From assembly GCA_029719485.1 (NCBI GenBank), contig CP120722.1, positions 744,001 through 808,000 on the forward strand: a DNA stretch of 64,000 nt. Direction: 5' to 3'. A model generated the notes under the pieces. That model made no database searches. It was not told where the DNA came from and saw only the letters and a list, made by a program, of their open reading frames with translations. Positions within the stretch are counted from its first letter, which is position 1; each line of letters opens with the position of its first letter. Below are positions 30,996-42,797 of the stretch, one piece after another. A program made the translations under genes and the position numbers. Origin of the DNA: Kiritimatiellota bacterium B12222 (GTDB lineage: Bacteria; Verrucomicrobiota; Kiritimatiellia; SS1-B-03-39; UBA6053).

Positions 30996-32035
30996 GTAGC
31001 TGTCGGCGTTTACGCCACGGGCCAGAGCTGAGGGATGGGTTGTGGTCTGTGGCCTCAAGGCCGACAGCTACCGTGAGAAGAGGCATGCAACTGGCGGCTT
31101 TATTGAAAGTGACGATAAAGGCGGCGCCGCGTAATTTTTGATAGGTCAAGGTTTGTGTGAAGCTGTCGGCGTTTACGCCACAGGCCCGTGCTGAGGGAAG
31201 GGTTGTGGTCTGTGGCCTCAAGGCCGACAGCTACGCTGAGAAGAGGTATGTAACTGGCGGCTTTATTGAAAGTGACGATAAAGGCGGCGACGCGTAATTT
31301 TTGATAGACCAAGGTTTGTGTGTAGCTGTCGGCGTTTACGCCACTGAGGGATGGGTTGTGGTCTGTGGCCTTAAGGCCGACAGCTACGCTGAGAAGAGGC
31401 ATGCAACTGGCGGCTTTATTGAAAGTGACGATAAAGGCGGCGAAGCGTAATTTTTGATAGACCAAGGTTTGTGTGTAGCTGTCGGCATTTACGCCACAGT
31501 CCAGAGCTGAGGGATGAGTTGTGGTCTGTGGCCTCAAGGCCGACAGCTACGCTGAGAAGAGGTATGTAACTGGCGGCTTTATTGAAAGTGACGATAAAGG
31601 CGGCGACGCGTAATTTTTGATAGGCCAAGGTTTGTGTAGCTGTCGGCGTTTACGCCACAGGCCCGTGCTGAGGGATGGGTTGTGGTCTGTGGCCTTAAGG
31701 CCGACAGCTACGCTGAGAAGAGGCATCAAAATGGGGGCTTTATTGAAAATGACGATAAAGGCGGCGACGCGTAATTTTTGATAGACCAAGGTTTGTGTAG
31801 CTGTCGGCGTTTACGCCACAGGCCCGTGCTGAGGGATGGGTTGTGGTCTGTGGCCTCAAGGCCGACAGCTACGCTGAGAAGAGGCATCAAAATGGGGGCT
31901 TTATTGAAAGTGACGATAAAGGCGGCGACGCGTAATTTTTGATAGACCAAGGTTTGTGTGTAGCTGTCGGCGTTTACGCCACAGGCCCGTGCTGAGGGAT
32001 GGGTTGTGGTCTGTGGCCTCAAGGCCGACAGCTAC
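30996..32035. repeat. Tandem array 1 of palindromic element family B with FNT-like spacers
   Basis: Seven copies of a 76-bp-class element (first copy 30996-31071, last copy 31960-32035) alternate with six nearly identical spacers of about 80 bp. The element starts GTAGCTGTCGGCGTTTACGCC and ends GGCCTCAAGGCCGACAGCTAC; the ends are imperfect inverted repeats and each arm contains its own small hairpin (GGCG-TTTA-CGCC and GGCC-TCAA-GGCC). One element copy (31322) has a shortened centre. Read on the minus strand, each spacer codes for YQKLRVAAFIVTFNKAA, resembling YQKLGFAAFIVIFIKAA of the FNT gene next door. Open frames through the array are by-products, not genes. Confidence 0.93.
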
Positions 32036-32810
32036 GGTGCATTTTGAGGAGGAACCAGCCGGTGAGATACATAGCGCCGAGGGCGTTTCCAAGAATGACG
32101 GGAATTTGATTCCAGAAGAGCCATTGGAAAATATTGATTTCGGCTCCCAACATCATGCCTGCGGGTATGACGAACATGTTGACCACGCAATGCTCCAAGC
32201 CGAGGGCGAAGAAGGTGAAGATAGGCATCCATATGGCTAAAATTTTTGCAGAAATGCTTTTGGATACAAAGGCCATGACCACGCCCATGGATACCATCCA
32301 ATTACACAGGGCCGCTTTGATGAAAATGACGATAAAGGCTGCGAATCCTAATTTTTGATAGGCTAAGGTTTTGGCTTCCGCTACTGCGATGACTTTTTCG
32401 ATCAGAGGGGAGCTTTCCACATGTCCGAGTTTACTGATGTAGATGGAGAAGAGGAGGGCATAGAGGATACTTCCAATGAAATTTCCCAGAATGACCCACT
32501 TCCAGTTTTTAAGCATATCCTGCTGTTTGATTTGGCCTCGAAAAAAAGCCATGGGAATGATGGCGAAATTTCCGGTGACCAATTCGGTACCCAGTAGAAT
32601 GATCATTACAAATCCAACAGGAAATGCGAGTGCACCCAGAAAGGGCATGCCGCTTTCGACAGTCACCGTGAGGGCGAGCGTGGTGGAGATGCCTAAAAGC
32701 AGTCCGGAATAGATGCCCCGCCATAACATGAGCTCATGGGGGAGCAGGGCTTTTTTCTTACCCAATGCGGTTAAGGTATCAACGAGTTCGATCGGGGTCG
32801 GTGGGATCAT
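32019..32810 (-). CDS. Formate/nitrite transporter (FNT) family channel
   Basis: A 263-residue membrane protein with six helices. LLGTELVTGNF and CVVNMFVIPAGMMLG are the two FNT half-repeat loops, and HCVVN supplies the central pore histidine. It is the last gene of the minus-strand nirK cluster, so nitrite (NirC-like) is the likeliest substrate. ATG 32810 is chosen as the start of the conserved part; the frame continues upstream without homology. The last five residues and the stop codon are encoded by the final copy of the palindromic repeat, so the natural C-terminus has been replaced. Confidence 0.85.
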   Translation of the reverse strand: MIPPTPIELVDTLTALGKKKALLPHELMLWRGIYSGLLLGISTTLALTVTVESGMPFLGALAFPVGFVMIILLGTELVTGNFAIIPMAFFRGQIKQQDMLKNWKWVILGNFIGSILYALLFSIYISKLGHVESSPLIEKVIAVAEAKTLAYQKLGFAAFIVIFIKAALCNWMVSMGVVMAFVSKSISAKILAIWMPIFTFFALGLEHCVVNMFVIPAGMMLGAEINIFQWLFWNQIPVILGNALGAMYLTGWFLLKMHRSCRP

Positions 32811-32830
32811 AGCATTGTCCGGGCTGGGGG

Positions 32831-33904
32831 TTAGGAGACTGAAGCTGCCAACGCAGGTTCGTAAACGCAGGCAGGGTCGGGCTGGGTGACATCTCCCGTG
32901 AGGGCATAGGCACGGGCGCGTGATCCACCGCCACAGGTGTCGAGAAAGTCGCAGTGTGCACATTTGCCTTGTAGTAAATCGGGGGTGCGGAGCTGTTGGA
33001 AGAAAGGATGGTTCCTATAAATATCAATCACGGAATGGTTGCGTAAATTCCCGCAATCAACTGGAAGAAACCCGCTGGGATTGACGTTTCCCTGATGATC
33101 CACAAAACAAAAACCGTTGCCGGCATGTACGGGGCGCGGTGGTTGACGTAAGGGCGTGTTTCCCTGATGTTGCGTGGCGTAGCGTCGGTAGTGTTGACCC
33201 TCCGTGATTTTGATACGGAAGGGGACATGGGGTTGCAACTGATGAATTCGGGCAAAGAGTTCTTCCATTTCTGCGGGGGAACAGCCTTCCAAATCTGCGC
33301 CACGTCCGGTGGGGACCAACATGAAGATTTCCCAAAATACGGGTTTAAGCGAGATGACTTTGGTTGCCAGCGCATCAAAACGGTGATGGTTCCACTTTCC
33401 AAAGACGGTATTGATTTGAAGGGGGATTTCCAGTTCGTGTACCCAATCGGCTCCTTGCATGGCTTTGGCATAGGAACCGGGGACGCGTCGGAAGTCGTCG
33501 TGTTCAGATTCGGTAGCGCCGTCGAGGCTGATGGCCAATTGATCGACCCCCGCGTTTTTGACGGATTGGAGACGTTCACGGGTCAGGCGTTCGGTGGTGG
33601 CGGGAATGGTGCCGACACGAAGTCCTTGCGCTTTGCCATGGGCGATAAGTTGTTCCAGGTCTTCACGTTGAAAAGGGTCCCCGCCAGTAAAAACGATCAG
33701 TGGGGTGCCCATGGCTGCGGTATCTTCGATGAGCTTAAAGCCTTCTTCCGTGCTTAATTCTAAGGGATCACGTCGATGAATCGCGGAGGCACGGCAATGT
33801 TTACATGCGAGTTCACAGGAGCGGGTCACTTCCCAGATCAGGAGAAAAGGGGCTTGATGAAAATCAATCGCGCGAACAGGGCAACCTTTGGATGACTTTT
33901 TCAT
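32831..33904 (-). CDS. Radical SAM/SPASM protein (NirJ/AhbD-related)
   Basis: A 357-residue radical SAM enzyme. The 4Fe-4S-SAM motif C-x3-C-x2-C is Cys30-Cys34-Cys37 (SCELACKHCRAS), followed by VFTGGDPFQREDL. The C-terminal SPASM region has further cysteines (VDCGNLRNH, GKCAHCDFLDTCGGG). The opening DFHQAPFLLIWEVTR is typical of the NirJ/AhbD/TIGR04053-like branch, whose known members act on heme precursors or ribosomal peptides. Five bases separate it from the SCO gene. Copper NirK does not need heme d1, so a role in maturing the fused cytochrome or an unknown product is open. Confidence 0.82.
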   Translation of the reverse strand: MKKSSKGCPVRAIDFHQAPFLLIWEVTRSCELACKHCRASAIHRRDPLELSTEEGFKLIEDTAAMGTPLIVFTGGDPFQREDLEQLIAHGKAQGLRVGTIPATTERLTRERLQSVKNAGVDQLAISLDGATESEHDDFRRVPGSYAKAMQGADWVHELEIPLQINTVFGKWNHHRFDALATKVISLKPVFWEIFMLVPTGRGADLEGCSPAEMEELFARIHQLQPHVPFRIKITEGQHYRRYATQHQGNTPLRQPPRPVHAGNGFCFVDHQGNVNPSGFLPVDCGNLRNHSVIDIYRNHPFFQQLRTPDLLQGKCAHCDFLDTCGGGSRARAYALTGDVTQPDPACVYEPALAASVS

Positions 33905-33909
33905 GGGAG

Positions 33910-34518
33910 TTATTTTGCCCCCGCGGCCAACTGGGTTTTGATTTGTTGCATAAGGGCTGTGTTGTCGACGCCGGGTCCGGCCAGTTGCAACGCAATTTCA
34001 CCTTGGGCGTTGATTAAGGTAATGGGAGCCGAGTGACTAATTTCGCCATCTGGAGTTTTGCGATACCGGATACCCAGTCCTGCGGCCAAGGTGCGTGCGT
34101 CTTTGGCATTGCCACTCCATAACTGCCAACGGGGCGTGTCCATCTCCCATGATTTTGCAAAGGCGGTGAGTTTTTCAGGGCTGTCGGTTTCGGGGTCAAA
34201 ACTAACCAGAATTACAGGGAGTTGAGCCTGTTCTGATGCTGTAAGTAAGTCTTCCATTTTTAATACATCCTGAATAAGCCGCGGGCAAACCGTGGGGCAG
34301 GTGGCGTAAAACATGGCGAGAATAAAGGGTTTACCTTGATAATCAGAGAGCGTTACTTTTTCACCATCCGTGTTGAGAAAGCTGGCTTGCAGGTGGAAAA
34401 GACTGGTGTCGGAATAAATGGGGGCCGCGGTTGTGGCGGGCGTCACTGCGCAGCAACTATCAGCGCTGTGGAGTTGAACGGTGCTTAATGCGAAGATCAA
34501 GGTGAGGATGTATTTCAT
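33910..34518 (-). CDS. SCO1/SenC family copper chaperone
   Basis: A 202-residue exported thioredoxin-fold protein with signal peptide (residues 1-18). The copper site is Cys74 and Cys78 (YATCPTVCPR) with His in GEISHSAPI. An extra SCCA motif follows the signal peptide. SCO proteins deliver copper or reduce cysteines in copper enzymes; the neighbour nirK is the obvious client. The ATG at 34518 overlaps the nirV-like stop (ATGA). Confidence 0.9.
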   Translation of the reverse strand: MKYILTLIFALSTVQLHSADSCCAVTPATTAAPIYSDTSLFHLQASFLNTDGEKVTLSDYQGKPFILAMFYATCPTVCPRLIQDVLKMEDLLTASEQAQLPVILVSFDPETDSPEKLTAFAKSWEMDTPRWQLWSGNAKDARTLAAGLGIRYRKTPDGEISHSAPITLINAQGEIALQLAGPGVDNTALMQQIKTQLAAGAK

Positions 34519-35270
34519 AAGGGAGGTTCTGGTAGGGTTGATGCACAACGAAAGCCCAGACCGGCGACGGTATGGGAGGCGGAAAGGCTGCCGCGAAAGG
34601 CGTAGCGTAAAAATGCGGCATAATCAGAAGGGTCAGCAGCACCGGCCGCTGCGCCCCCGCAAAATAAGGCAGATAAGCTTTCATCACTTCCTGCACGTGA
34701 GAGCAGGGCCAGACTGTCATAGTCTTCGCACCACTCCCAAATGAGACCATGCAGGTCCCAGATACCACTTGTATTTTGTTGAGTGCTTTGTACTGCGGGG
34801 AGGGGATGGGCCAAAGGTTTCGCGTACCAGGATAAGATTTGTTGTCGGGTGGTGGATTCGGGTAACAGTGCGGCAGCCACTTCCCATTCTGCAAGGGTAG
34901 GTAAACGCAAACCTTTCCATTCGGCGTAGGCCCTTGCGGCATGCCAGGAAACAGAAGTTACGGGTGCTTGCGGTGGGGCTGCGTCTCCAGGGAGGAGAGG
35001 GGAAGTCCAATTTCGTAGGTAACCTGCATCGGCGAGGATACGCGGAACCTTCCCTTTTTGCCATTGCGGGTTGGCGGTGACAAAAGCCAGATAATCCGCA
35101 TTGGTGACTGCGTGGACATCCAGACGGAATGCTTCAACAGGTACTGGATCCATGTCTTTCATAAGCGGGATAAAGGTTCCCGCAGGAATCAAAAGTTGAG
35201 GGGTGTCCTTTTGGGCTGAGGCGACGAGAGCCATCAAACCCAGACAGACTGTAAGGGCGTATTTCATCAT
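34515..35270 (-). CDS. nirV: NirV-like SUMF1/FGE-fold protein
   Basis: A 251-residue exported protein (signal peptide residues 1-19) with the formylglycine-generating enzyme fold: PVTSVSWHAARAYAEWKGLRLPTLAEWE, then GLIWEWCEDY, and the ending LGFRCAS. The positions that hold the two catalytic copper-binding cysteines in true FGE read Ala and Tyr here (AAFLRYAFRG), so it is not expected to make formylglycine. SUMF1-fold genes called nirV lie next to nirK in several denitrifiers; their role is unresolved. It sits two bases from nirK. Confidence 0.72.
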   Translation of the reverse strand: MMKYALTVCLGLMALVASAQKDTPQLLIPAGTFIPLMKDMDPVPVEAFRLDVHAVTNADYLAFVTANPQWQKGKVPRILADAGYLRNWTSPLLPGDAAPPQAPVTSVSWHAARAYAEWKGLRLPTLAEWEVAAALLPESTTRQQILSWYAKPLAHPLPAVQSTQQNTSGIWDLHGLIWEWCEDYDSLALLSRAGSDESLSALFCGGAAAGAADPSDYAAFLRYAFRGSLSASHTVAGLGFRCASTLPEPPL

Positions 35271-35272
35271 GC

Positions 35273-36685
35273 TTACTTGGATGAGGGGTTACGATGTTTT
35301 TGAACCCGCGCAGGATCAATTTGGCCGGGTGCTTCATTTCCCCAAGAGTTGAGAATGAAATTCATGACATTACTGATTTCCTCATCATTGAGGTTTTGAG
35401 GGGTCATGACTTGATTATAAGATTTTCCATTGACGGTGATGGGACCTTTCTTTCCGTGAACTACGATTTCGATCGCCCGATCGATATCTTCGAGCAAGAA
35501 ATCAGATTTGGCCAAAGGGGGAAATACACCCGGAATGCCTTGTCCATTGGATTGGTGGCAGGCCATACAGGTGGCCTGATAGGTGGTTTTGCCGGCCTTG
35601 ATACTTTCATCTAAGGTTAACGCTTTTTGTGGGGCCTCTGTTTTGGGTAACAGCAAAGGTTTGTCCGGGGTATTGACCATGGTTTTGTATTGGGAGTCCA
35701 AAATCTTTCCGCTGTAAATTTCATGGTCCTCTTCGCCAGTGACTTTGATCATACCGAGGGCCCCTTTGTTGAAGGCACGAAAGATGGCATGATCTACAAT
35801 GATAAAGGTTCCGGGGACTTCGGTGGTGAATTCAACCATGGCAGCGCCACCGGGCGGTACGGTGGTGGTTTGCACATTGCGATTGGCCATGCTACCGGCT
35901 TCGGGGTAGACCCAATCGAAAATTTCACCGATCACATGGAAAGAGGAGGCTAAGTTGGGTCCACCATTTCCTACAAAAAGTCTGACGGTTTCCCCTTTGT
36001 TTACGGGAAGGGCGTTCTCACCGGTAAGCGCGCCAACTGATCCGTTGAATACCACATAATCAGCTTGTTCTTTAATGGCTTTGTCCATGGAAAAAGGTTG
36101 TAAACCTTCTTCACCATGTTCGCCTTCGGTGTAGAATTCACTTTGAAAGACATAGTACTCTTTGTCTACCTTACTTAAGCCGTTTAGGGGTTCGACCAAG
36201 ATAAGGCCGTACATGCCGTTGGCGATGTGCATACCCACGGGTTGGGTGGCGCAGTGGTAAACAAACAAACCTGGATTGAGGGCTTTAAAACTAAATTTTG
36301 AACTGTGACCGGGAGCGGTGAATGACCCTTCTGCGCCTCCACCTTGTCCGGTGACGGCATGCAAATCGATATTGTGGGGGAGTTTGTTGTCGGGGTGATT
36401 ATGCAGATTAAACTCCACCTGATCGCCTTCGCGAATACGAATAAAGGAGCCGGGGACAGTGCCACCGAAGGTCCAAAACATATATTCGACGCCGTCGGCG
36501 AGCCGCATAACTTTTTCGACCACTTCCATATCCACAATCACTTTGGCGGCATGGTTTCGTTCGATCGGCGGGGGAACCATGGGTGGGGAGGTCATGCGTG
36601 CCTTTTCCACCGGGAGCCCTGCGGCAGTCAGGCGAAAAGCTGTTGAAAAGATGAGTAAGCTACTGAGGGTTGATATTCTTTTCAT
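35273..36685 (-). CDS. nirK: Copper nitrite reductase fused to cytochrome c
   Basis: A 470-residue periplasmic enzyme: signal peptide (to about residue 22), two cupredoxin domains (about 45-165 and 175-320), then a class I cytochrome c (about 360-450). All type 1 copper ligands are visible (His104, Cys145, His153, Met158), as are the type 2 ligands (His109, His144, His299) and catalytic Asp107 and His250. Heme binding is CMACH (373-377) with probable axial Met428. This matches the three-domain NirK known from Ralstonia pickettii, in which the tethered heme feeds electrons to copper. It reduces nitrite to NO. GGAG lies eight bases before the ATG. Confidence 0.96.
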
Positions 36686-36705
36686 AACGCGCTCCTTTTT
36701 AATTA

Positions 36706-36719
36706 AGACAAAATGGTCT
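36706..36719. promoter_or_regulatory. Candidate NO-responsive operator upstream of nirK
   Basis: AGACAAAATGGTCT is a dyad (AGAC/GTCT, six-base centre) between the Rrf2-like gene and nirK. Its GACAA half and spacing match dyads ahead of the regulator/CopD pair and the P450/nnrS pair; one inner position of the second half deviates. Confidence 0.45.
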
Positions 36720-36743
36720 GATTTAAGATTAAATTTTTTGGCT

Positions 36744-37181
36744 TTAGATTTCGAGTAACCGAAGCCCTTGGGTTTTGATGCGATCTGCGAGGCTTTCGAG
36801 ATGTTCTTCACCCAACATCATTTGGATTTCGGCTTTAATGGCTACCCAGCGATCATGTAAGGCGCAGGGGTTGTCGTTGTCACATTTGGAAAACCCTAAA
36901 ATGCATCCGGAAAAATAATCTTCCCCTTCGATACTCTCAATTATTTCTTTGACGTTAAGTTCGGATGTGGGTTTGGCCAATTGGATGCCTCCGGCGGCCC
37001 CCCGGGATGAAATGATGAATCCTTGATCTGCAAGCTCTTTGAGAATTTTGGTGAGAAAGTGAAAAGGGATGTCTAGCTTTTGGGAGATTTCTCGGATGGG
37101 TACGAACTCGCGTTCAGGGGGTTGAACCCCTAAGTAAAGGACGGCGCGTAAAGCGTGAAGACAACGTTTGGAAAATATCAT
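36744..37181 (-). CDS. Rrf2-family regulator, NsrR-like
   Basis: A 145-residue regulator with an N-terminal winged helix (residues 5-75; [19 protein letters not shown] and [13 protein letters not shown]). Three cysteines, Cys93, Cys100 and Cys106 (C-x6-C-x5-C), are placed as in Rrf2 proteins that bind an iron-sulfur cluster, such as NsrR and IscR. Position directly upstream of nirK makes NO sensing by cluster nitrosylation the best guess. ATG 37181 begins the conserved domain; the 27 codons before it have no homology. Confidence 0.85.
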
Positions 37182-37207
37182 AGGAAAATAGAGGTGTAAG
37201 TAATTAC

Positions 37208-37219
37208 GACAACTTTGTC
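37208..37219. promoter_or_regulatory. Candidate operator between Rrf2 gene and CopD-like gene
   Basis: GACAACTTTGTC is a perfect dyad GACAA-CT-TTGTC in the 101-base divergent intergenic region. It would allow the regulator to control itself and the CopD-like gene. It shares half-sites with the dyads at 36706 and 41533. Confidence 0.5.
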
Positions 37220-37282
37220 CGCAATTAAGGTTGCAGTCAATGTAAAAGTTTTGTTTATTCACTCAACTTTAGGAGACGTACA

Positions 37283-37789
37283 ATGCAACATCATGTTTAT
37301 ATCTGTTTGGTTTTGATTCATATTTTATGCGCCATGCTGTGGGTCGGAGGCATGTTATTCATGACCTTGATGTTGATCCCGGCCTTGCGGGGTTTGAAGG
37401 ATCCGCAGTTAATGCGCACGCTGATGCAGTCGGTGGGCAAGCTATATCATCGGTGGGGTTGGGGATCATTGATCGTGTTATTGATCACTGGATTTCTGCT
37501 ACTTGATTATAGAGGGATTTCGCATACCCAATTGGCCTCAGCAGCATTTTGGCACTCTCCCTTTGGTACCACCTTGGCATGGAAATTGAGTTTTTTCCTG
37601 CTGGTGGTCGTCTTTTCGGTCGTACATGATGTTTCTGCTATTCGCTCAGCGAAGCGGGAGAACCCGACGCCTGAGCAACGGGCAACAGACCGCAAAGTGG
37701 CATCCTGGTTAGGGCGGGTGACCTTGTTGTTGTCACTGGGCATTGTGGTACTGGGGATTATGTTGGTGCGGGGGAATCCCTGGCTCTAA
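37283..37789 (+). CDS. CopD-like four-helix membrane protein
   Basis: A 168-residue protein with four hydrophobic helices. The opening HILCAMLWVGGMLFMTLMLIP and the later HD and W residues match the CopD/DUF4149-like group of copper-associated membrane proteins. It diverges from the Rrf2-type regulator and shares its promoter region. A copper-uptake or heme-linked role connected with NirK maturation fits, but is inferred from position. AGGAG lies seven bases before the ATG. Confidence 0.7.
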   Translation: MQHHVYICLVLIHILCAMLWVGGMLFMTLMLIPALRGLKDPQLMRTLMQSVGKLYHRWGWGSLIVLLITGFLLLDYRGISHTQLASAAFWHSPFGTTLAWKLSFFLLVVVFSVVHDVSAIRSAKRENPTPEQRATDRKVASWLGRVTLLLSLGIVVLGIMLVRGNPWL

Positions 37790-38571: not shown

Positions 38572-38952
38572 TCACCAACTCACCATTTCGCCTTCCAAAG
38601 AAAGACAAATACGATCTTCAACTACCCAGTGACGCAAATAAATATCAGTCCCTGATATTTTTACTAAATAACAGACCGAGTCATCCGTAATTTCAACTTC
38701 AAGTATATCAATACTATGGTCATTTAATTTAGTTTCGATATATTGTTCAGTTAGTGCGCCACTATCAGAATCTTCTAAGTGTTCAGCTATTAATTCCGAA
38801 ATCGCACCATGAGCAGAAAAAACAGCTCTTCTTTTTAGTGTGATAGATAGCCATGGTAACACTAAGAAAAATAAAAAAATAAATACTAATAAGACAGCAC
38901 CAATTTTTGCCGTATTGCAAGAAAACTTCTTAAGAAAATAAAATTTAATCAA
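38572..38952 (-). CDS. Single-pass membrane protein, probable partner/immunity of the RHS tip
   Basis: A 126-residue protein with a lysine-rich start, one membrane helix ([17 protein letters not shown], about residues 18-36) and an acidic soluble domain. A TTG at 38952 overlaps the RHS stop by four bases (TTGA); a TTG at 38973 is the alternative. The gene is AT-rich like the 3' half of the RHS gene and unlike the surroundings. Position and coupling are those of an immunity protein behind a polymorphic toxin, and a membrane location would fit a toxin that attacks from the periplasm. The family is not recognised. Confidence 0.55.
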
Positions 38953-40190
38953 AACACTAAGTCTTCGGTACAATCTAACAGTTTTCGTTTTTCTCCAGAG
39001 GAAGAAGCAGTAACTTCAAAAGAAGACCCTTGAGGATTACATGCCCTGACTAGCTGATCGGTTATCTCATATGGTGCTGCTCCAAAAGAAACTCCTGAAT
39101 CCCAAAAATTAACTTTGTCATGCGCATTAAAATCACATTTAACTTCCGCCTCAATATAATCGCAACAACCTTTGTTTAAACCTCTTTTTGAGCAATTTTT
39201 GGTATATGTAACTGAACAAGTATACCAAAATCTAAACCCAAATATCATCTGGTTAGCAAAATTCCAGTGATTACTTCTTTGTGGTTCATTAACTGAATAA
39301 GTATGAGTTTCACTCTGCCCACATCCCAATTTCAATCCATTTTGATATGCATGAAGATATCCTTTTCCGTATGCAGATTCTCTTATGAATCCTCCTGTAT
39401 CAAACTTTGAAATTTTAAGTTCCATATCATCTCCACTTCCTGCGCGCCAATGATTAAGTAATTTTTGATTAAGTCCGAAAGCCCAACGGTTTAATGCCTT
39501 ATTGACTTTCTTACATTTTTTAGGTGTCGCAGGAAGATCTAATTTTTTCCAAGGGAAATTTCCGAGATAATCAAATTGGTTTAAGCCATCATTACCCACG
39601 AAGGCGTAGAGGTTATATCCCCCTTGTTCTTGCATGGGATCACGATTTGGCCATCTACCTGTTTCGGGGTCATAGTATCTGAAGCCGTAGTAGTAATAGC
39701 CGGTTTCAGCGTCTTGGTATTTGGTTGAGAACTGGTTGTTTTGAATCGCGGGGGATTGTTGGTAGGGCTCCGGGTGCGGTGATGTCTGGGAGTAGTCGTG
39801 AAGGGAGGTAGAGCTGTGTCGTAGTCGTTTTCTTTGGGGTAGGACGATGAGGGGTAGGAGGGCCCAAGTGTAGGGGAGGGCTTTGTTTATGGGCCTGGGA
39901 GAGGTGTCGAAGCGTTGATGATGGGGCTTGTCTGCTGAAGGCATGGTTTGCGTCGTACCCGTTGTTTTGACGTTATCGTGACGTGTTTCCCAGGTTGTGC
40001 ATCGTAGGGCTGATTGAGGTTGTTGATGTAAATGCGGCGTAGACGTAGGTGGCGACGGCTGATGGCGTACTGGCTGTGAATTCGGGGTCGTAGCTATAGA
40101 TGTCTGACCATATAGGGCATAACATATCAGGCGTCCCATCAGGAATAATCCGATGATCCCTGTCTTTTGCAAAAGGGCTGAAATGCGCAT
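38949..40190 (-). CDS. Orphan RHS core-domain protein with variable C-terminal tip
   Basis: A 413-residue protein. A signal-like hydrophobic N-terminus (residues 5-28) and a low-complexity Pro/Ser/Thr/His region precede the RHS-associated core at about 153-210 ([20 protein letters not shown], then [19 protein letters not shown]). The last 200 residues are cysteine-rich and unrelated to the core, as in polymorphic toxins. It lacks the thousand-residue YD-repeat shell of full-length Rhs proteins, so it is either a silent tip cassette or a small secreted effector. The 5' third has different base composition from the AT-rich tip. Confidence 0.75.
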
Positions 40191-40375: not shown

Positions 40376-41500
40376 TTAAGTGAGTTGCAGAAATAATGCT
40401 TCGAATCCGGTTTCGGGAAAACTGGCGGGTTGGTAAATTTTTCCGGGGTGGATGGATTGGATTTGTGTGAACAATTCTTCCATAAACATGCGCAGTTGTA
40501 GTTTGGCCAAGGGAGCGCCGGGGCAGACATGGATTCCTTTTCCCCACAGAAGATTTTGGTCGGGGTCTCGGTCCCATTTAAATGCGTGCGGACAGGGGAA
40601 CGTTTCCGGGTCCCGGTTGGCCGCTTGCCATACCAAGGTGAGTTTGGTGTTTTCAGGCAGGGTTGTTCCTGCATGTTCTACGGGGCAGCGGGTGACGCGT
40701 CGGTTGGTTAACAATGGCGCGTGCAGGCGCAGAATTTCATCGATGGCTGTTTCTAGTTGTGCTGGATGTTGTCTGATTTCGTTTTGGATATCAGGATGCT
40801 CGGCACAGAAATGAAGGATGATGGCCACGGAGGCAGATAGGGTTCCCACTTCTCCTGCGGTCCAGTTGCGGAGAATGCTGATGATTTCGTCATCACTGAG
40901 GGGCTTTCCATTTACCTGTTCTTTCATCAATTCTGTCGTGAGATCCTGTGGCGCATTTTCCCCTAGTTGACGTCGTTCATCAATTTGAGTCTGCACCATG
41001 GCGGTGAAATGATCGGCCTGTTGTTTGATGCGGTTGCGGTCACCCGTTTTCATGGCTTTGCGGGATTCTTGCCACCACTGCCAGAGATCGTCATGAATTT
41101 CTTGAGGCCATCCCATCCAGGCGCATTGAATTTGTAATACGTAGGGGGTGGCAAGTTCGCGCATGATGTCGGTATCGCCCTGTTTTGCACAGGAGGCGAT
41201 GAGGCGCTTGGCGATGTCGCGGCATGCGGGTTCAAAGTCTTGCATACGCGAGGCTGAGAAATAGGGTTCGATCAATTTTCGAAAGGGGCCATGCTCAGGA
41301 GGATCCATGCCGTTGGGCACAGAGAGGTGTTGGGAAACGGCATTGCTGTAGCGTTCATGATCCGCTAAAATGGCGACCATTTCTTTATGGTTGAGGATGG
41401 GGACGGTGCCGGGAAAGAGGTCGGGCGCTGGCGTCTGCGCATGGATAAAGGGATCGAAGGCCTCCGGCGTGGTGTGGGTAATGTGTGTTGAGTGACTCAT
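40376..41500 (-). CDS. Cytochrome P450 with atypical I-helix
   Basis: A 374-residue soluble P450. The ExxR motif is Glu255-Arg258 (DEILRLHAP); the heme loop LLWGKGIHVCPGAPLAK places the thiolate at Cys326, with Trp in place of the usual Phe. The I-helix reads WTAGEVGTLSAS (213-224) where monooxygenases have AGx(D/E)TT, so the acid-alcohol pair for O2 activation is missing. It diverges from nnrS across a 91-base region with a dyad like that before nirK. Reduction of NO, as by fungal P450nor, is an attractive idea; peroxygenase activity or an unusual oxidation are alternatives. ATG 41500 begins the conserved sequence. Confidence 0.88.
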   Translation of the reverse strand: MSHSTHITHTTPEAFDPFIHAQTPAPDLFPGTVPILNHKEMVAILADHERYSNAVSQHLSVPNGMDPPEHGPFRKLIEPYFSASRMQDFEPACRDIAKRLIASCAKQGDTDIMRELATPYVLQIQCAWMGWPQEIHDDLWQWWQESRKAMKTGDRNRIKQQADHFTAMVQTQIDERRQLGENAPQDLTTELMKEQVNGKPLSDDEIISILRNWTAGEVGTLSASVAIILHFCAEHPDIQNEIRQHPAQLETAIDEILRLHAPLLTNRRVTRCPVEHAGTTLPENTKLTLVWQAANRDPETFPCPHAFKWDRDPDQNLLWGKGIHVCPGAPLAKLQLRMFMEELFTQIQSIHPGKIYQPASFPETGFEALFLQLT

Positions 41501-41532
41501 GAGGGCTCTATAATTCATCTGATATTTTAATC

Positions 41533-41548
41533 CAGATAAAATTATCTG
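41533..41548. promoter_or_regulatory. Candidate operator between P450 and nnrS
   Basis: CAGATAAAATTATCTG has perfect seven-base arms CAGATAA/TTATCTG. A further ATCTGATA half lies at 41517. The core GATAA-AA-TTATC matches GACAA-CT-TTGTC at 37208 with C/T exchange, and its position would serve both divergent genes. Confidence 0.5.
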
Positions 41549-41591
41549 AATTATATTGTCGCAGTTGAAAATGTATGACAACGGGGGGCAC

Positions 41592-42797
41592 ATGAGCTTC
41601 ATCGACATTCAAGGATTGCCCGAATCACCATCTGTTCCTCTCAAACCTGAAGGGATACCCTTATTCCGTTTGGGTTTTCGATTTTTCTTTTTTGCGGCCA
41701 CGCTTTGGTCGGTGCTCAGCTTGGGGCTGTGGGGGCTGATGTACAGTGGGGTGATCCATTTCCCCCATCATTTTATGCCCATGCAATGGCATGGACGTGA
41801 AATGGTGTTTGGGTTTACGGGGGCGGTGATTGCGGGATTTTTACTGACGGCTGCGGGTAATTGGACGGGGTTGGCTATGCCGTCTGGGAAATCGTTAATG
41901 GGCTTGGCATTGTTGTGGACGGCAGGGCGGGTTTGTCCTTTGATTCCGACACTTCCTTTGGTGCTGGTTGGGATGGTTGATGTGAGTTTTTATGTGGTGC
42001 TGGCAATCACGTTGGCGATTCCGTTGTGTAAAGCGAAGCAAGTGCGCAACTTTCCATTTCCGATAATTTTGTTAGGAATCGCGTTGGCGGATGCCTTGAG
42101 TTATGGGCAGTTTCGAAATGGACAGGGGATTGCTGTGGGCACAGAGTTGGGGATTACCTTGTGTCTTACCATGGTGATGCTGATGGGGGGGCGGGTGATT
42201 CCCGGATTTACGAAAGGGCGGATTCAGAAGGCACAAACCCGATCATTTTCCTGGGTGGAAAAGTCTGGCGTGGCTTGTTTTTTGGCTGCCGCGCTGGCGG
42301 AAATCTGTGCATTGCCCGCTTGGGTATGGGGCAGTTTATTTTTGCTGGCCGGGCTGATTCAAGGGTTGCGGTTGTTCGGGTGGTTTACGCCTGAAATTGT
42401 GCATCAGCCCTTGTTGTGGATTTTGCATGTGGCCTATTTTTGGTTGGTGTTTGGAGTGTGGTTGAAAGGACTGGCGGCCTTTGGTTGGGGAAATCCGTTG
42501 TTGGCACGTCATGCCTTAACTGCGGGGGTGTTGGGTAGTATTTGTTTAGGCATGATGACCCGGGTGACTTTGGGGCATACGGGAAGGGCCATGCAAATAC
42601 CGCCCATTACGGTGATGTCCTTTCTCTTCATGCAGCTGGCGGTGATCTGTCGGGTGATATGGCCTTTGTTACAGCCGAGCGGATATTTGTTTGCAATTCA
42701 GTTGTCGGTGATTTTTTGGATTGCGGCTTTCGGGATTTATCTGGCCTTTTATGGACCGATGTTATTTAAACCCAGAATGGATGGTCAACGGGGCTAG
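41592..42797 (+). CDS. nnrS: NnrS family heme-copper membrane protein
   Basis: A 401-residue protein with about 12 helices. The family signature QWHGREMVFGFTGAVIAGFL is followed by LLTAAGNWTG; later conserved histidines occur in PEIVHQPLLWILHVAYFW, LLARHALTAG and VTLGHTGRAM. NnrS lowers nitrosative stress during nitrite/NO metabolism and is usually under NO-responsive control. ATG 41592 is chosen, with a purine-rich GGGGGG upstream; earlier in-frame starts are at 41571 (ATG) and 41556 (TTG). Confidence 0.93.
   Translation: MSFIDIQGLPESPSVPLKPEGIPLFRLGFRFFFFAATLWSVLSLGLWGLMYSGVIHFPHHFMPMQWHGREMVFGFTGAVIAGFLLTAAGNWTGLAMPSGKSLMGLALLWTAGRVCPLIPTLPLVLVGMVDVSFYVVLAITLAIPLCKAKQVRNFPFPIILLGIALADALSYGQFRNGQGIAVGTELGITLCLTMVMLMGGRVIPGFTKGRIQKAQTRSFSWVEKSGVACFLAAALAEICALPAWVWGSLFLLAGLIQGLRLFGWFTPEIVHQPLLWILHVAYFWLVFGVWLKGLAAFGWGNPLLARHALTAGVLGSICLGMMTRVTLGHTGRAMQIPPITVMSFLFMQLAVICRVIWPLLQPSGYLFAIQLSVIFWIAAFGIYLAFYGPMLFKPRMDGQRG

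Follow-up and report, generated by a model that had tools for sequence, protein, structure and literature searches.

A bacterial cytochrome P450 clade with a displaced I-helix acid as a candidate member of a nitric oxide regulon

The only cytochrome P450 of Kiritimatiellota bacterium B12222 falls in a bacterial clade with sharp limits, and the genetic context of this clade makes a role linked to nitric oxide (NO) highly likely. The gene lies in the window (the whole stretch of 64,000 nucleotides that was analysed) and is a good candidate for NO handling because it has an operator in common with nirK, an Rrf2-family regulator gene and nnrS, and because no NO reductase was found in the genome. 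The enzyme may act directly on NO or another nitrogen oxide.

The P450 gene, its clade and its active site

An open frame on the minus strand (40376-41608) holds the gene and gives a Pfam p450 match of 3e-23. A start at 41500, which yields a protein of 374 amino acids (40376-41500, minus strand), agrees with the starts of the congeneric genes, and the gene is real; a scan of the genome, a single contig of 4.43 Mb, returned this P450 and no other. The initial annotation, made from the letters of the window, had described an intact ExxR motif and heme-Cys loop, and alignment locates both, the former as E255-x-x-R258 (40727-40738, minus strand) and the latter as G320-G328 (40517-40543, minus strand) with Cys326 in H-V-C-P-G. 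Both motifs lie inside a P450 fold, which places the protein in the cytochrome P450 superfamily. A frame that adjoins the gene (38949-40190) has no Pfam match and is RHS-like by look; frames resembling it occur about 5 kb upstream of the clade P450 in genome G424 (L076, 2946-4701).

A tblastn search of 72,556 plasmid records returned nine records at 33-46% identity, the 31 other matches listed being at or below 29.4% and a further 1033 matches lying beyond those listed; the same nine records came back when two relatives served as queries. A profile built from 12 clade members gives members 487-603 bits and no other P450 more than 170. With it the clade was found in at least 5 of the 387 genomes sampled from the phylum and at least 6 of 345 genomes of the class; some members may be missing from these counts, since scoring was limited to five first-look candidates per genome. 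One protein searched against genome contigs gave a single weak match, and the clade profile found nothing in the genome concerned. In a tree of 47 P450s (14 members, 28 other P450 frames, four CYP55-like bacterial sequences and CYP55A1, with duplicates and some further frames left out) the 14 members form one clade with a support of 100/100. The P450 of Ensifer canadensis (L016, 5881-7025), which has an NnrS gene downstream, is frameshifted and was excluded from the alignments and the tree.

The I helix of the protein reads R211-N-W-T-A-G-E-V-G-T220 (40841-40870, minus strand), so that the A-G-E-V-G-T noted at the outset is indeed present, with Gly219 at the acid position, Thr220 retained and Glu217 where a Gly is usual. 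In an alignment of the 14 intact members with 28 other P450s, the four CYP55-like bacterial P450s and CYP55A1, the residues L-R-N-W, G216 and G219 are invariant in 14/14 members, which argues against a chance change of the helix motif, and ExxR and Cys326 are equally invariant. The acid position is Gly in all 14 members, so the clade departs from the canonical Asp/Glu before the I-helix Thr; elsewhere it is Asp or Glu in 25/28 other P450s and Ala in CYP55A1. The alcohol position is Thr in 11 members and Ser in three. The Glu217 position, which is Gly in 28/28 other P450s, in the four CYP55-like bacterial P450s and in CYP55A1, is Glu in ten members, Asp in three and His in one. Taken together, Thr/Ser in 14/14, Gly in 14/14 and Asp/Glu in 13/14 indicate that the alcohol is kept and that the acid has moved two residues earlier. 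The original description of a P450 without an acid-alcohol pair thus stands for the acid and fails for the alcohol.

The register of the helix is supported by the spacing from Thr to ExxR, which is 35 residues in 11/14 clade members, 26/28 other P450s and CYP55A1. A one-residue insertion in the helix is only one of two possible registers, the other having no insertion and a Glu in place of the Gly that precedes the acid. The P450 of Sphaerospermopsis is one residue shorter at the helix motif. Further features of the clade are a B-C loop of 14-15 residues (17-37 in the 28 other P450s), Tyr or Trp in 14/14 members at the usual Phe of the heme loop (Phe in 25/28 other P450s), and Pro after the heme Cys in 13/14. 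In the searches made, no known function was found for an active-site variant with its acid moved two residues. Many of the remaining P450s in the phylum sample (L008, L009, L010, L027-L032 and others) belong to a separate family whose I helix reads A-G-G-R-D-T.

An AlphaFold2 model built from seven alignment rows (pLDDT 80.4, pTM 0.82) places the motif inside one continuous helix, 203-234, and a fold comparison returned an ordinary P450 fold, with CYP124 at Z 37.5 and 2.6 A over 360 residues. This comparison does not discriminate, since all 1000 aligned chains have Z of at least 8, and the position of CYP55 outside the best 50 of the 1000 is evidence neither way; the predicted structure does not tell the function.

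Relation to P450nor and other known P450 systems

The initial annotation had likened the protein to the fungal NO reductase CYP55/P450nor, a comparison that did not hold up either as kinship or at the level of residues. In the tree, CYP55A1 shares a branch with the four CYP105-like sequences from bacteria (100/100) and the clade stands apart (100/100); the closest solved relatives are CYP105 types for CYP55A1 and CYP125 and CYP113 for the clade. Equivalents of Lys62, Arg64, Glu71, Asp88, Arg174, Ser286 and Asp393 of P450nor are not conserved in the clade: the Ser286 position is Leu or Phe in 14/14 members, position 174 is Lys or Arg in none of the 14, and positions 62 and 64 have one Arg each among the 14. 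We take Lys62, Arg64, Glu71, Asp88, Arg174 and Asp393 to be NADH-site or proton-site positions of P450nor, and Lys62, Arg64 and Arg174 to be the basic residues of its NADH channel. The B' helix, which has a role in the NADH channel of P450nor, lies in a region that is 14 residues shorter in the clade. Ser286, Thr243 and Ala239 of P450nor contact the NADH amide (PMC4030948). Since the NADH-site residues are not conserved, a hydride transfer of the P450nor kind lacks sequence support, and an NADH-direct chemistry of this type is not supported for the window P450.

What the clade does have in common with CYP55A1 is a heme-thiolate P450, a retained Thr next to an I-helix acid position occupied by a small residue (Ala242 there, Gly219 here), and a nitrogen-oxide context (for P450nor, PMC4030948). 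The differences are the separate branch, the missing NADH-site and proton-relay residues, a B-C loop of 29 residues in CYP55A1 as compared with 14-15, and the Glu/Asp of the clade at the helix Gly position. Membership in P450nor is therefore ruled out by the tree and the residues, despite the common pattern of an acid changed to a small residue with Thr kept.

By sequence and fold the nearest solved proteins are class I monooxygenases of the CYP125, CYP124 and CYP113 types (211.9 profile bits for CYP125MRCA; CYP124 as given above), although their identity to the window P450 is about 24-27% and CYP125MRCA retains the acid (A-G-N-E-T-T). The nitrating P450 TxtE was ruled out, its model TIGR04458 giving 59 bits where the cut-off is 500. 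A further prokaryotic P450, that of the archaeon Nitrosocosmicus oleophilus, resembles the present one by description, as a putative NO reductase put forward on physiological and expression grounds (PMC6775971). That proposal comes from pH-dependent expression, and the authors term their candidates polyphyletic and unproven. No title or abstract in the literature searched, which left subscription journals mostly outside, reports a bacterial P450nor or a link of a P450 to nnrS, nar, nirK or NsrR, and neither is described in the available parts of PMC6710368, PMC12423496 and PMC5015936.

Operator, gene neighbourhoods and NO sinks

The P450 is divergent from nnrS (41593-42797, plus strand; PF05940 9.4e-103; ATG at 41593 set by homologues), as had been recognised from the start, and a palindromic operator lies between the two genes (41528-41553), matching with no mismatch on both strands. 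A second copy, also without mismatch, precedes the gene of the Rrf2-family regulator (operator 37201-37221, plus strand; gene 36744-37181, minus strand), and a third, with one mismatch, lies 15-35 bp before nirK (36700-36720, plus strand). The pattern was built from the P450-nnrS and Rrf2 sites and the whole genome was scanned with one mismatch allowed; within 4.43 Mb it occurs at these three places only, the nirK site being new to the pattern. The shared control with nnrS and nirK that had been proposed is thereby supported, the operator being confined genome-wide to these promoters and that of the Rrf2 gene. About one match is expected by chance at this stringency, as estimated from base counts, and a reversed control pattern gave one match in the genome, so that the weight of the operator lies in the position of the third site and in its conservation. 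Shuffled sequence never equalled the operator counts (0/100, 0/200 and 0/200), with the pattern fitted to two of the sites. Among the congeners, G003 keeps all three operators, and so does G004, with two mismatches in its P450-nnrS site; in genome G023 the best match carries four mismatches.

The Rrf2 protein is NsrR-like and has three Cys (C-x6-C-x5-C), which together with the common palindromic operator corresponds to an NsrR-type regulon, and it would be expected to bind the three putative operators. Its orthology to NsrR is not established, as the NsrR model gives 42 bits, far under the cut-off of 182. In NsrR regulons, nnrS and, in some bacteria, nirK are under an Rrf2-type NO-responsive repressor (Rodionov 2005, PMC1274295, available in part); the term P450 is absent from the main text of that paper, so the present gene would be an added member of the regulon. 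A TTG-N8-CAA motif, which is FNR/NnrR-like, occurs less than about 120 bp from the P450 start in 3/3 rhizobial loci, 0/2 Burkholderiaceae loci and 0/5 others, a post hoc count that hints, weakly, at a possible CRP/FNR-type control in the three rhizobial loci (L016, L017 and L018).

The nirK gene itself (35273-36685, minus strand; TIGR02376 6.8e-107) encodes a copper nitrite reductase with a C-terminal cytochrome c domain. Its operon also comprises, on the same strand, a SUMF1/EgtB-like gene (34515-35270), conserved in G003, G004 and G023 and presumably NirV-like, a TlpA-like thioredoxin-fold gene (33910-34548) and a TIGR04053 radical SAM/SPASM gene (32831-33904; 3.7e-122), conserved in G003 and G004. 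A formate/nitrite transporter-family gene (32019-32963, minus strand; TIGR00790 2.9e-47) is found nearby, and a CopD-like membrane protein (37283-37789, plus strand) is encoded divergently from the Rrf2 gene. A TIGR04053 gene is also found directly beside the clade P450 of Deinococcus ficus (L020, 7005-8174).

Of 11 lineages, five have nnrS, nirK or nar no more than about 6 kb from the P450, as compared with none of seven loci in a small set of control P450s; Caballeronia SBC2, whose P450 is identical, was left out of this reading. All three genomes of the window genus have nnrS divergent from the P450 and the nirK operon near, and in G023 the P450 is divergent from rrf2-nirK. The Burkholderiaceae have the order narGHJI, narK, P450 and a PAS gene, with NnrS, hemerythrin and Rrf2 also near in Paraburkholderia, and in Ensifer and Shinella NnrS is downstream of the P450. 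Between narK and the P450 of the Burkholderiaceae lies a small gene named 'ribonucleotide reductase subunit alpha' (L014, 5358-5768; L015, 5277-5687), a name that looks wrong because the product has only about 136 amino acids. The stretches read in G047, G424, G060 (a 7 kb contig), Ciceribacter, Sphaerospermopsis and Deinococcus contain no gene for nitrogen-oxide respiration or NO, D. ficus having nothing closer to one than a nitrite/sulfite reductase, which stands with genes of sulfate assimilation, and the TIGR04053 gene.

Co-occurrence with nirK, a check suggested in the initial annotation, gave 4 of the 5 P450 carriers against 22 of 387 genomes overall with nirK above cut-off in the same sample (hypergeometric 3.8e-5, a value that ignores that two carriers are one genus). 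A clade P450 is absent from 18 of the 22 nirK genomes, and G001, a congener in the 387-genome sample that has no P450, has no nirK. Genome G060, which also carries a clade P450, has no nirK above cut-off; it does have Hcp, along with a PF00115 gene that is weak and unclassified.

The absence of norB from the window, as first reported, extends to the genome as far as tested. G000 (the window genome), G003, G004 and G023 have two PF00115 genes each, among which no NorB was seen. In the window genome one is CtaD-like, its 659 bits falling slightly short of the model cut-off of 671, and the other is a fused cbb3 CcoNO, both of them oxidases. In G003, G004 and G023 the second gene is likewise a fused cbb3, and the first scores like that of the window genome, on PF00115 only. 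G047 and G060 have two and one further, weaker PF00115 genes, respectively; among such weaker genes, L071 and L069 have no NCBIfam match at the threshold used and L070 lay outside the scan. Hcp was found in one of the seven P450 carriers (G060) and not in the window genome, and neither a globin nor a flavodiiron ODP (above cut-off) was found in any of the seven, the window genome included; the built-in controls of these searches were positive in known genomes. As far as NorB, Hcp, globin and flavodiiron ODP are concerned, the window genome thus offers no dedicated sink for the NO made by NirK. The cbb3 oxidase that is present could reduce some NO.

Proposed function and alternative explanations

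The P450 can tentatively be regarded, from its sequence and context, as a dedicated member of an NO regulon that would remove NO at its heme, likeliest by reduction. The preferred interpretation is that the enzyme would act directly on NO, with reduction as a plausible and likeliest single reaction, and the narrower assignment of the protein as an NO reductase is somewhat doubtful. We infer NO as the substrate, its removal as the reaction and the Rrf2 protein as the factor that binds the operator. Once NirK converts nitrite to NO, the NsrR-like repressor of the Rrf2 family would release the three operators, and nirK, the Rrf2 gene, nnrS and the P450 would be expressed together. The P450 would then remove NO at its thiolate-ligated heme, most probably by 2 NO + 2 e- + 2 H+ -> N2O + H2O, in which the ferric heme would bind NO and accept electrons and a second NO would couple; the helix with Gly219 and Glu217 would give a pocket not tuned for O2 splitting. 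As the B' NADH pocket is missing, electrons would probably arrive via a separate ferredoxin or reductase and not from NADH bound there.

The regulon and linkage evidence would also fit an NO dioxygenase, in which a ferrous-oxy heme and NO would give nitrate, as in Hmp, and protect the cell at the oxic edge with no need for NO reduction. Such an activity would agree with the lack of globins in the carriers searched and with the presence of both respiratory oxidases, which indicates that the cells meet O2, and the altered acid position could stabilise Fe-O2; however, in the Burkholderiaceae the P450 comes after a set of nar respiratory genes, which should operate at low O2, and neither a reductase domain nor a neighbouring reductase was seen. 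We consider a dioxygenase quite unlikely. A monooxygenase of NO stress, which would oxidise or nitrate a small organic molecule by a TxtE-like nitration or in the repair or detoxification of nitrosated metabolites, is unlikely too, although the canonical fold, the hydroxylases (e.g. CYP125 and CYP113) among the nearest solved relatives and the retained Thr/Ser speak for it. Beside the P450, the lineages read show no recognised biosynthetic gene set, and the annotated neighbours include no ferredoxin gene; the TxtE score is far below its cut-off, and the invariant polar R-N-W and Glu217 would suit a hydrophobic substrate pocket poorly.

It is improbable that the protein is a heme sink or sensor without turnover, which would bind NO tightly for buffering or signal relay. 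The altered proton-relay helix and the adjoining PAS-domain gene of the Burkholderiaceae point in that direction, but ExxR and Thr/Ser are conserved in 14/14 members, which suits an enzyme, and NsrR senses NO, a task that the Rrf2 regulator probably performs already. Least credible of all is a coincidence, an ordinary P450 that happens to adjoin nnrS: 6 of the 11 lineages do lack a nitrogen-oxide gene nearby, yet the operator in common with nirK is confined to this cluster genome-wide and kept in congeners, and linkage has arisen independently in other bacterial groups and in other layouts.

Many bacteria have a nitrite reductase without a recognised NO reductase, which raises the question of where their NO goes; the modularity of denitrification is reportedly the topic of a published study. 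A P450 clade co-regulated with nirK in a genome of this kind makes the question of NO fate directly testable. The clade also offers a P450 active-site variant in which the acid has moved two residues up the helix. It could, though this is doubtful, represent a second, independently evolved P450 NO reductase, bacterial and reductase-fed and not NADH-direct, that would close the NO step in nirK bacteria without norB. If so, P450s of this clade would make N2O unseen by norB surveys, and an NO-handling P450 would add an enzyme to gene surveys of greenhouse gases.
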